Positions 38,618 to 41,358 of a DNA stretch of 49,945 bases are shown piece by piece. The notes beneath the pieces were generated by a model. That model worked only from the letters and a program-made list of their open reading frames with translations, searched no databases and was not told the origin of the DNA. Location of the stretch: assembly GCA_003158295.1 (NCBI GenBank), contig PMIP01000080.1, forward strand, positions 3,187 to 53,131, read 5' to 3'. The first letter of the stretch is position 1. Each line of letters starts with the position of its first letter. This DNA is from Chloroflexota bacterium. GTDB lineage: Bacteria > Chloroflexota > Limnocylindria > Limnocylindrales > CSP1-4. The translations under genes were made by a program, and so were the position numbers.

Positions 38618-39442
38618 CTACTGATACTGGGACTCCCCTGACGGGACCGAGGGCCGTGCGCCGTCCGGCCAGATGTTGAAGAGCTCGGTCAGCCACCTGC
38701 CGATCCGGCCCGGTCTGGGCTGATCGGGGAAGTCGGCGACGAGCGTCTGGAGCGCCGACTCTATCTGCGCAGTCAGCCTGTCGACCGCCTCGCTCGTCGG
38801 GCGCGAGCGCGTCTGGCACCCGGTTGCGATGGGCAAGCCGATGCGGACGCGAACCACCCGACGGAATCCGAGCCAGCTCGTGCCGTTGACCGACATCGGA
38901 ACGACCGGGACACCGGCGCGCAAAGCCAGATAGGCCGGACCGCTCCGCAACGGCAAGAGCGCTCCTTCTCCGGCGTGGATCCTCCCCTCCCCGGCGATGG
39001 CCACGACCGCGCCGTCGGCGAGCAGCGCACGAGCCCTGGCCGTGGCGGCGACCAGGCCCCGATTGCCGGGGCGGAACGGCACCGCTACTCCGGCCCATCG
39101 CATCAGGCGGTTCCGAACGCCTCGCCTCATCTCCTCTTGCTCGGGACCGAAGAAGAAGATCCGCGGCCGGCCGGGCATCGCCCCGAGCACGAACAGCGGG
39201 TCGGCCCAGTTCTGGTGGCTAAAGCACAGGACATAGGGTCCGGCCGGCAGTCGAGTCAGGCCTTCGACACGCAGCCTCGAATACAGTCGTGCCCCGGTCG
39301 GTACGACAAGTCGAGTGATCGAGTAGCGGCGGGCGGATCGCACCGGGGCCTGCACCTCCAGCGGATCTCGGCCTCGAGGCCCCACCGTGCGTTCCGAGGA
39401 CCGGGTGGCCGCCCGCGTTTCGTCCAGCTGAGTCGCGGTCAT
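38618..39442 (-). CDS. PlsC-type 1-acylglycerol-3-phosphate acyltransferase family protein
   Basis: The 274-aa protein has the acyltransferase motif I CFSHQNWADPLFVLG (HxxxxD), motif II-like RIFFFGPEQEE and GVAVPFRPGNRGL, motif III AIAGEGRIHAGEGALLPLRSGPAYLAL (EGR with downstream Ser) and motif IV VPVVPMSVNG. It probably makes phosphatidic acid or acylates a related lipid at the membrane. No clear ribosome site precedes ATG 39442; CATACT lies exactly six bases upstream instead, pointing to leaderless expression. The upstream 125 residues of the ORF-track version are not homologous and are dropped. Confidence 0.88.
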   Translation of the reverse strand: MTATQLDETRAATRSSERTVGPRGRDPLEVQAPVRSARRYSITRLVVPTGARLYSRLRVEGLTRLPAGPYVLCFSHQNWADPLFVLGAMPGRPRIFFFGPEQEEMRRGVRNRLMRWAGVAVPFRPGNRGLVAATARARALLADGAVVAIAGEGRIHAGEGALLPLRSGPAYLALRAGVPVVPMSVNGTSWLGFRRVVRVRIGLPIATGCQTRSRPTSEAVDRLTAQIESALQTLVADFPDQPRPGRIGRWLTELFNIWPDGARPSVPSGESQYQ

Positions 39443-39448
39443 GGTGCG

Positions 39449-39454
39449 AGTATG
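39449..39454 (-). promoter_or_regulatory. -10-like box six bases before the acyltransferase ATG
   Basis: CATACT-CGCACC-ATG on the minus strand. The spacing equals that seen at icd, the DUF7832-like gene and apbE and predicts initiation at the ATG. Confidence 0.4.
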
Positions 39455-39553
39455 CCAAGCCGAGCGGCAGCCGTCCTGGCGTTCGGCCCGCAGGACCTGA
39501 TGGCAGGTCGTGGGAGCGTGGGCGCCGCGCACGTCACGATCCCGGCCGGACCC

Positions 39554-39581
39554 TTGACCTGTTCTCAACTCTGAGTACGCT
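39554..39581 (+). promoter_or_regulatory. promoter of the MNT-HEPN pair with embedded operator
   Basis: TTGACC (39554-39559), 16 bases, then TACGCT (39576-39581). The spacer holds GTTCTCA-ACTC-TGAGTAC (39561-39578), an imperfect inverted repeat with 7-4-7 layout. The same layout recurs perfectly at 39646-39663, so a dimeric repressor, probably the winged helix of the next gene, may bind both. Confidence 0.55.
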
Positions 39582-39587
39582 TGTGGG

Positions 39588-39659
39588 ATGGCCGACGAAG
39601 AGCGCTCTCCATCTCGCGACCGGCCGTTCCGTGATGAGCCGTTCAGTTCTCATGTTTGA
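39588..39659 (+). other. possible leaderless 23-codon upstream ORF
   Basis: ATG at 39588 lies six bases after the TACGCT -10 box. The frame (MADEERSPSRDRPF...) runs 23 codons and stops at TGA 39657-39659, eight bases past the ATG of the nucleotidyltransferase gene, a layout that could couple translation. There is no homology evidence. Confidence 0.25.
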
Positions 39660-39663
39660 GAAC
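39646..39663. promoter_or_regulatory. operator-like inverted repeat over the MNT start codon
   Basis: GTTCTCA-TGTT-TGAGAAC has perfect seven-base arms and covers the ATG at 39652. It matches the promoter-spacer repeat at 39561-39578 in arm sequence and 7-4-7 layout, 85 bases apart. Confidence 0.6.
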
Positions 39664-40383
39664 AGCGAGATCGTGCCTCTGGCGGTAGGCAGGTCGATGG
39701 TTCGGCGGCGGATCCTCGCCTTGTTGCTGGCGGAGCCGGGGCTTCGGCTGCACCTGCGAGAGATCCAGCGACGCGCGAGCACGAGCCCCGGGACCGCCAG
39801 CCGCGAACTCGCCAGGCTCGTCTCGGCAGGCCTGATCGAGCGTGAAACCGAAGCGAATCGAGTCTTCTTCCGCGGCTCGGCGTCGCCGTTCGCGACGATG
39901 CTTCGCTCGCTTCTGGTGGGCGTGCCTACGCTCCCGGCGGCTCCGGGCAACTTGCAGGCAGACGGGACCACCTCCGCTCCCCCACTCCACGTTGGTACGA
40001 TGCCGGGACACCCGCCGGCCGAGAAGGTCGCCATCTCGGGCGGTGGCGTGGCCGGAATGAAGGCAGATCCGCAAGGCCTCGAGGCGGGAGCAACCGTCGC
40101 CGCGCGGATGCGCGCGATCTACGGCGAACGCCTTCGGGGCGTCTTCCTGTACGGCCAACGGGCGGCTGGCGGAGCACCGCATGACTCGGAGGTGGAGCTG
40201 ATGGTGGTGCTGGATCGCATCGAGCGCTACGGAGAGGAGCTCGACCGGACCAGCACGGTCTTTGCGTCGCTCTCGCTGGAGCTGGGAGTGGTCGTCAGCC
40301 GCACCTTCGTCTCCGAAGCAGACTGGCGGACTCGGACCGACGGCGGGCTGCCAAGAGTCCGGGCCGAGGCGGTATCCCTGTGA
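39652..40383 (+). CDS. winged-helix/minimal-nucleotidyltransferase fusion (MNT-type antitoxin-like)
   Basis: The N-terminal 80 residues form an ArsR-like winged helix (VRRRILALLLAEPGLRLHLREIQRRASTSPGTASRELARLVSAGLIERE). After a linker comes a nucleotidyltransferase domain (RMRAIYGERLRGVFLYGQRAAGGAPHDSEVELMVVLD). In active MntA-type proteins this stretch is GSxxRGxxxxxSDxDL. Here Gly-Ser is Gly-Gln and both catalytic Asp are Glu, so AMP transfer may be lost or altered. The next gene encodes a HEPN protein overlapping by four bases (GTGA). The start is uncertain: GTG 39583 would precede the predicted transcript start; ATG 39634 is an alternative to 39652. Confidence 0.78.
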   Translation: MFENSEIVPLAVGRSMVRRRILALLLAEPGLRLHLREIQRRASTSPGTASRELARLVSAGLIERETEANRVFFRGSASPFATMLRSLLVGVPTLPAAPGNLQADGTTSAPPLHVGTMPGHPPAEKVAISGGGVAGMKADPQGLEAGATVAARMRAIYGERLRGVFLYGQRAAGGAPHDSEVELMVVLDRIERYGEELDRTSTVFASLSLELGVVVSRTFVSEADWRTRTDGGLPRVRAEAVSL

Positions 40384-40763
40384 CGGCCCATTTCGCCCAG
40401 CTGGTCGACGCGGCGGATCAGGCCATCGTCGCGGCCCGCCTCGGACTCGAGGCCAACGACGTCGAAACGGCCGCCGAGCAGGCGTGCACGGCCATGCTCC
40501 GCCTGGCGAGCGCGTGCCTCGACCAGGACGGCCTTTCTCCGCGGCCCACGCGGGCGGTCTGCGTGGCCTACGGAGAGCGCTTCGGTCGAACGGGTCGCCT
40601 CTACTCGGCCTATCACCGCTGGCTGCTCGACGCGGCAGACCTTCGCAAAGCCTCGACCCGCGAGCTTACCGGCCCGATCGACCGAGCCGCCGCTGCCACG
40701 GCCGTGGAACGAGCGGAGGTTTTCCGCGATGCCGTCCTCCGCTTCGCAGAGCGGAACGGCTGA
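40380..40763 (+). CDS. HEPN-domain protein (toxin-like partner)
   Basis: The 127-aa helical protein matches the UPF0332-type HEPN layout: AADQAIVAARLGLEANDVETAAEQACTAMLRLASACL, then DGLSPRPTRAVCVAYGERFGRTGRLYSAYHRWLLDAADLRKA and a last helix. An R-x5-H (RLYSAYH) could be the HEPN RNase motif, though its position is not typical, and the usual AYYAxFH of helix 2 is degenerate (EQACTAML). HEPN proteins next to nucleotidyltransferases form toxin-antitoxin pairs (HepT/MntA). GTG start overlaps the upstream stop. Confidence 0.75.
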   Translation: MTAHFAQLVDAADQAIVAARLGLEANDVETAAEQACTAMLRLASACLDQDGLSPRPTRAVCVAYGERFGRTGRLYSAYHRWLLDAADLRKASTRELTGPIDRAAAATAVERAEVFRDAVLRFAERNG

Positions 40764-40773
40764 GGATGATTTG

Positions 40774-41358
40774 GTGAAGCAAGATGGGCGACTCCGCTGC
40801 TGGTGGCCGGACGGACTCGACGGGGCCGATCCATTGATGGTCGCCTACCACGACGACGAGTGGGGCGTCCCGGTTTCAGAGGACCGCGCCCTCTTCGAAC
40901 GCCTGGCGCTGGAGAGCTTCCAGGCAGGGCTTTCGTGGGCGACCATCCTGCGCAAGCGCGAGGCCTTTCGGAGTGCTTTCGCCGGATTCGCCCCGAGGAC
41001 GGTCGCCGCATTCGGCCTCTCCGACCGCGAACGCCTGCTGGCCGACGCGGGAATCGTCCGCAACCGAGCCAAGATCGACGCCACCATCAAGAACGCCGGG
41101 CTGTTCCTGGAAGTGGCCGCCGAACACGGATCGTTCGCCGGCTACCTCGCGACGTACCTCCCACGACCGGCGCCGACTCTCACGTCCGCTGACACCTGGG
41201 CCGACGTGCCGGCCACGACACCCGAGTCGGACTCCTTGTCGGTCGACCTGCGCAGGCGGGGGTTTCGCTTCGTCGGATCGACGATCGTGTACGCGTTCAT
41301 GCAGAGCGTCGGCCTGGTGGACGATCATCTGCCGGGCTGCTTCCGCTACCGGGGCTGA
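40774..41358 (+). CDS. tag: DNA-3-methyladenine glycosylase I
   Basis: Tag removes 3-methyladenine from DNA in base-excision repair. The 194-aa product has the zinc-binding Cys of LRCWWPDG and His of VAYHDDEWGVPV near the start, the helix-hairpin part RALFERLALESFQAGLSWATILRKREAFRSAFAGF and IVRNRAKIDATIKNA, and the C-terminal GFRFVGSTIVYAFMQSVGLVDDHLPGCF with the remaining His and Cys ligands. GTG at 40774 has GAGG eight bases upstream; the ORF-track start at 40729 would overlap the HEPN gene. Eleven bases from the HEPN stop, so possibly co-transcribed. Confidence 0.94.
   Translation: MKQDGRLRCWWPDGLDGADPLMVAYHDDEWGVPVSEDRALFERLALESFQAGLSWATILRKREAFRSAFAGFAPRTVAAFGLSDRERLLADAGIVRNRAKIDATIKNAGLFLEVAAEHGSFAGYLATYLPRPAPTLTSADTWADVPATTPESDSLSVDLRRRGFRFVGSTIVYAFMQSVGLVDDHLPGCFRYRG

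Follow-up and report, generated by a model that had tools for sequence, protein, structure and literature searches.

HEPN/MNT pairs have been called the commonest toxin-antitoxin (TA) module of prokaryotes, and their accepted mechanism is the AMP tagging of the toxin. The window, i.e., the whole 49,945-nt stretch of a Limnocylindrales contig (phylum Chloroflexota) analysed here, contains such a pair in which the catalytic motif of the nucleotidyltransferase (MNT) is degenerate and a winged helix-turn-helix (wHTH) domain is fused ahead of it. This raises the question of what a pair of this kind might be kept for. An earlier note on this DNA had suggested that the antitoxin could act by binding and by transcriptional repression instead of AMP transfer, and we examined that suggestion by comparing the locus with its relatives in the genus, in sister genera and among characterized systems.

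Domains and class of the gene pair

The two genes of the pair were found to be joined by a GTGA overlap, with coordinates, frame, overlap and residues all as the earlier note had given them (Table 1). Its reading of the MNT motif as GQ-x10-ExE (Ser to Gln and both Asp to Glu) was borne out by the translation, and the winged helix that it placed ahead of the MNT matched MarR_2 (9.3e-7) and HTH_metalloreg (1.2e-7). A longer ORF opening with GTG at 39583 was considered as the start of wHTH-MNT and was ruled out by the homologous starts, since relatives begin, with ATG or GTG, at the codon corresponding to 39652.

Table 1. Positions of the gene pair, its motif and its upstream elements, counted from the first nucleotide of the window.
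Feature	Position	Strand	Details
Promoter-like sequence	39554..39581	+	TTGACC (39554-39559), 16-bp spacer, TACGCT (39576-39581); layout common to 17 genus copies and 2 intact relatives
Putative operator palindrome 1	39561..39578	.	GTTCTC-N6-GAGTAC, between -35 and -10
Leaderless upstream ORF	39588..39659	+	23 aa (MADEERSPSRDRPFRDEPFSSHV); TGA overlaps wHTH-MNT start (ATGTTTGA)
Putative operator palindrome 2	39646..39663	.	GTTCTC-ATGTTT-GAGAAC, over wHTH-MNT start codon
wHTH-linker-MNT gene	39652..40383	+	243 aa; Pfam, PADLOC, structure model, per-domain dN/dS
wHTH-MNT protein domains			wHTH about residues 1-89; unstructured linker 90-138; MNT 139-243
Degenerate GSx10DxD motif	40153..40197	+	G168-Q169 ... 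E180-V181-E182
Class II HEPN-like (PF05168-type) gene	40380..40763	+	127 aa; GTG start inside GTGA overlap

The structure model of wHTH-MNT (mean pLDDT 84; residues 100-123, in the linker, below 50) showed both the wHTH and the MNT fold, and a Foldseek comparison with the PDB identified the former as an ArsR/SmtB-like winged helix, the best matches being mostly of that type (HlyU, NolR, CzrA, SqrR). ArsR/SmtB repressors such as HlyU, NolR and CzrA resemble wHTH-MNT in this N-terminal fold and in having a palindromic self-operator, but they are neither fused to an MNT nor paired with a HEPN. A Pfam search of the window copy of wHTH-MNT did not detect the MNT domain; it matched PADLOC PDC-S09 at 2.9e-17, and the MNT family profile matched 9xbd_E at 1.9e-19. 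Likewise, a Pfam search with the window HEPN-like protein alone gave no match, and PF05168 was matched (E<=1) by 16 of 22 HEPN family members, the window copy not being among these. The HEPN family profile matched 9xbd_A at 4.3e-26 and the HEPN model (pLDDT 91) matched 2hsb with a TM of 0.88, so that, taken with the PF05168 matches, the partner is a HEPN of the PF05168 type found in Class II pairs. As in that class, the MNT lies upstream of the HEPN and is coupled to it. An Rfam search of 39400-40900 returned no match. In the window the gene for Tag (3-methyladenine DNA glycosylase I, 40729-41358) comes next, and there and in some relatives it begins within the HEPN gene or just past its end.

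The solved structures nearest to the pair, 9xbd (HEPN + MNT) and 9xbc (HEPN), are of the intact type and belong to the same subfamily as each of its two proteins (profile E of 4e-26 and 2e-19). The genus pair adds the wHTH and a long linker to what is seen in 9xbd, and while 9xbd keeps GS, SDID, AYYAM, SHS and SDYD, the genus clade lacks the Ser, the second Asp, the Tyr-Tyr, the His and the Asp-Tyr. The likeness to the Class I HepT/MntA of S. oneidensis and the HEPN-MNT of Legionella (type VII TA) lies in an MNT antitoxin fold paired with a HEPN, and for S. oneidensis it extends to the MNT gene coming first, to the gene overlap and to autoregulation: the S. oneidensis antitoxin SO_3165 has no wHTH and nonetheless binds its own promoter and represses it (PMC4621449). 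The genus pair differs from Class I in lacking both GSX10DXD and RX4HXY, in its dedicated wHTH and in its PF05168-type HEPN.

Conservation of the pair and loss of its catalytic and likely acceptor residues

When wHTH-MNT was searched in 101 related genomes, it was present throughout the genus, and the HEPN partner was present in 18 of the 21 same-genus genomes. Those genomes with named records are Chloroflexi MAGs, mostly from fen samples, and the genus is described as peat-bog. Both genes were complete in all 18 copies, with a 4-nt overlap of the ATGA/GTGA type (ATAA in one copy, L031). Gene order (ParA-ParB-UbiA-x-acyltransferase/wHTH-MNT-HEPN) was constant in copies with enough flanking sequence, the sole exception being that UbiA was not detected in the flank of L037, and the pair occupies the same chromosomal site in the genus copies and a different one in the intact relatives of sister genera. 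The earlier note had accepted that close homologues with an intact GS/DxD would reduce its observation to a single decayed copy. No such homologue was found among the 18 genus copies, and a single decayed copy is ruled out, since 18 copies with intact genes all carry the degenerate motif.

The canonical GSX10DXD was absent from the MNT in 18 of 18 genus copies. Its second acid was Glu in every copy (Glu182 is invariant), and the first was Asp in 13 and Glu in five, so that ExE occurs in 5/18. The position of the GS Ser was Ala in nine copies, Ser in one, and Gln, Pro, Val, Glu, Ile or Asp in the others, and lies at the 95th percentile of variability within the otherwise constrained MNT domain of the 18 copies. 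Therefore GQ/ExE, which the earlier note had asked about as a possibly fixed form, is not fixed (Gln 2/18, ExE 5/18); what is constant is a residue other than Ser in 17/18 and [D/E]xE in 18/18. In the HEPN, Y36, Y37, H57, D93 and Y94, which are common to four intact relatives, were absent from all 18 genus copies, while R80, D84, D87 and R89 were kept. RX4HXY, including its acceptor Tyr, was also absent from the HEPN in 18/18. The description of the HEPN RNase motif as non-standard was therefore true but understated, since Class II pairs, for which no biochemical study existed by 2020, normally lack RX4HXY (PMC7641770), and here the residues conserved within Class II have been lost as well. 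Among these is a conserved Tyr that might be adenylylated, Y94, which is present in 4/4 aligned intact relatives. By analogy, and from a Tyr-to-Phe difference between 9xbd and 9xbc at the equivalent position, which hints that this Tyr matters, Y94 is the likely AMP acceptor. Since the pair lacks two defining features of a Class II TA, the canonical motif and this Tyr, we call it Class II-derived, not a working member of the class.

Despite these losses, the intact pair is under purifying selection in the genus as judged from codon changes, with dN/dS of about 0.2-0.36 (means over copy pairs with dS < 1.5: wHTH 0.18, MNT 0.36, HEPN 0.21); the linker is near neutral (pN/pS 0.89). In the HEPN tree the degenerate proteins formed one group (support 100/99) on a stem of 1.41 changes per column with short tips, a shape suggesting one episode of fast change followed by constraint, although long-branch effects may have lengthened the stem.

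Of the genus genomes, three lack the pair: two have deletion scars (G006 and G018) and one has only the wHTH (G002). Each scar consists of promoter-operator-like sequence, then the last HEPN codons, then Tag, and the two deletions are apparently independent of each other. A wHTH-only derivative under the same promoter occurs in G002 (L139/L141), where the wHTH shares its frame with the upstream ATG, and another in G015 (C62:82545-82877).

The same wHTH-MNT fusion, for which the earlier note had proposed a search, occurred throughout the genus and also in intact sister-genus pairs, and the fusion is therefore not new to the degenerate clade. Two such intact pairs (L048 and L051) resemble the genus copies in domain layout, in the 4-nt overlap and in having palindromes at both the promoter and the start codon. 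They differ in keeping GSRARGD...SDID in the MNT and AYYAM...SHG...ADYD in the HEPN, in lying at another chromosomal site, and in having a leaderless start directly at ATG/GTG with no upstream ORF or repeat array. A third intact-type pair (L049) has a truncated wHTH, and one in Thiodictyon has none. In a further MNT fusion family, from related genomes of the same taxonomic class, an unrelated N-terminal domain is joined to an MNT with intact GS and SDID or SDMD (L183, L184 and L185), adjoined in L183 and L184 by an intact-type HEPN partner.

Promoter, operator palindromes and upstream ORF

A promoter-like sequence of the form TTGACC-16-TACG(A/C)T, or a near variant, lies upstream of every genus copy; in L034, which was read by eye, the -35 is imperfect. 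Palindrome 1 was present in all genus copies with small changes at most, and palindrome 2 spans the start codon in all of them except L037, where it lies 28 nt upstream. A putative palindromic operator in the pair's own promoter is thus common to 18/18 genus copies and, in variant form, to two intact relatives located elsewhere, L051 having GTACTC-N6-GAGTAC as palindrome 1 and GTACTC-ATGTCT-GAGTAC as palindrome 2. The 21 genus genomes were searched with a 26-bp promoter-operator pattern at up to 3 mismatches. The pattern matched once, at this locus, in 20/21 genomes, three of the matched genomes having lost the pair; the remaining genome gave two matches and carries an additional wHTH-only copy. 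Since there is one promoter-operator per genome, the single apparent target of the regulator is itself, and wHTH-MNT probably regulates its own promoter only. Genome-wide searches with single 16-18 bp palindromes were uninformative, since many of the matches resembled coding DNA and the reversed-pattern control takes no account of codon bias.

Between the position of the leaderless start and the main start, most genus species carry 21-bp operator repeats, and an upstream ORF runs through this interval from the first start codon, 6-7 nt from the -10 (example peptide, MPENDCSLSENDCSICENDRPHV). Its TGA overlaps the main start, in the same stop register (+5), in 17/18 genus copies, L034 being read by eye, and the distances (22, 43, 61, 64 and 85 nt) all equal 1 mod 3. 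The window copy and its nearest relative have lost the DNA repeats but still have the upstream ORF and its register. The ORF likely couples translation by termination and re-initiation, a reading of the conserved register that is qualified by the register following in part from the 21-bp unit. Coupling is its likely purpose because the operator sits in the place of the Shine-Dalgarno sequence. Considering that the -10 box of the intact relative L051 is only 7 nt from the ATG, its message should be leaderless.

Explanations for the retention of the pair

Because the motif is degenerate, the acceptor Tyr lost, selection purifying and an operator present in the pair's own promoter, we consider it fairly probable that this is a Class II HEPN/MNT pair without AMP transfer, kept for protein binding and self-repression. 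AMP-transfer chemistry would have been lost in the common ancestor of one Limnocylindrales genus, and the pair would since have been inherited vertically at a single chromosomal position and maintained for protein and DNA binding. In this mechanism wHTH-MNT may hold the HEPN through the pol-beta-fold/HEPN interface with no AMPylation, and its dimer, or its complex with the HEPN, would bind GTTCTC-N6-GAG[A/T]AC both within its promoter and across the start codon, shutting off the operon. The HEPN may in this case still be toxic or may serve solely as a co-regulator. The binding-and-repression part of the earlier proposal thus fits the genus-wide degeneracy.

A further possibility, which we put forward tentatively, is that the pair was domesticated: having lost its AMP-transfer site and acceptor, it may now be a dedicated DNA-binding regulatory complex, the operator of which has been amplified into 21-bp repeats. 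These would at the same time encode a leaderless leader peptide built of heptad repeats, a single DNA element thereby acting as an array of operators, an upstream ORF and a coupler of translation. The notion of a domesticated MNT/HEPN is already found in PMC3710099. The inactive HEPN regulator MtlR described there likewise lacks RNase residues and is kept as a regulator, but it belongs to another HEPN family and has no MNT or wHTH partner.

The pair could instead be a working TA, in which the HEPN is toxic through a Class II mechanism and is neutralised by the antitoxin through binding alone, with autorepression, in a type II-like manner. Both genes and their overlap are kept in all 18 copies, a HEPN without an MNT was found in none of the three genomes that lost the pair, and the retained R80, D84, D87 and R89 would suit such a toxin. 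Moreover, S. oneidensis MntA D39E,D41E, which has the ExE of the window, still crystallises in complex and, with adenylylation abolished, neutralises more weakly, neutralisation being reduced and not reported absent (PMC7641770). Against this, the HEPN has lost what intact relatives conserve, among others D93, which lies close to where the RNase His would be, and the pair holds one fixed site in place of a patchy mobile spread; no close plasmid relative of the intact-form HEPN was found, and a plasmid search with the window HEPN gave two weak cyanobacterial matches. We regard a working TA as rather unlikely.

Since both motif positions stay acidic in 18/18, with Glu182 invariant, the protein may still bind metal and have a changed activity, and Asp/Glu-x-Glu might modify the HEPN or another substrate at an altered metal site. 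The aminoglycoside enzyme KNTase is active with Asp-x-Glu. However, the GS-loop Ser is gone in 17/18 at a nearly unconstrained site, the partner has lost its acceptor Tyr, and the same Asp-to-Glu changes killed two studied MNTs, that of S. oneidensis and that of L. pneumophila, where no modification was seen with D48E, D50E or both together (PMC11586414). An active nucleotidyltransferase is thus improbable.

Similarly improbable is that the palindromes are LexA (SOS) boxes, making the operon DNA-damage-inducible together with the neighbouring Tag glycosylase. The core GAACN4GTTC does occur in the genus lexA promoters and, in 1-3 exact copies, upstream of 13/18 genus copies, and Tag adjoins the pair in the window and several relatives. 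But no GAACN4GTTC is present in the window promoter, four other copies also lack it, and the intact relatives have GTAC for GAAC; because of this absence from the window copy and the intact relatives, LexA was set low as the main explanation. Furthermore, the same start-codon palindrome (GTTCTC-ATGTTG-GAGAAC) precedes an orphan wHTH-MNT gene of another genus (L179), and in other species Tag either lies far away or was not detected. Shared LexA control in some species is possible. The lexA promoters of the genus (L117-L134) carry TTGACA..CGAACNNNNGTTCTGT, the likely LexA box of the genus, and several genus genomes (L076, L078, L087 and L088, around 1500) have a LexA-like site, TAGAGAACNNNNGTTCTA, ahead of gyrB, which would mean SOS-type control of gyrase or a half-site shared with another regulator. 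That the pair is a decaying remnant on its way out, as its loss from 3/21 genus genomes might suggest, is very improbable given 18/18 intact copies, dN/dS well under 1 and conserved operators.

A pair that has lost both donor and acceptor chemistry, with its proteins and operator kept and vertically inherited, would be a natural experiment in separating binding and regulation from catalysis. It falls in the Class II branch, for which there was no published biochemistry as of 2020, and the intact sister pairs, whose operators are arranged in the same way, make a direct comparison testable.
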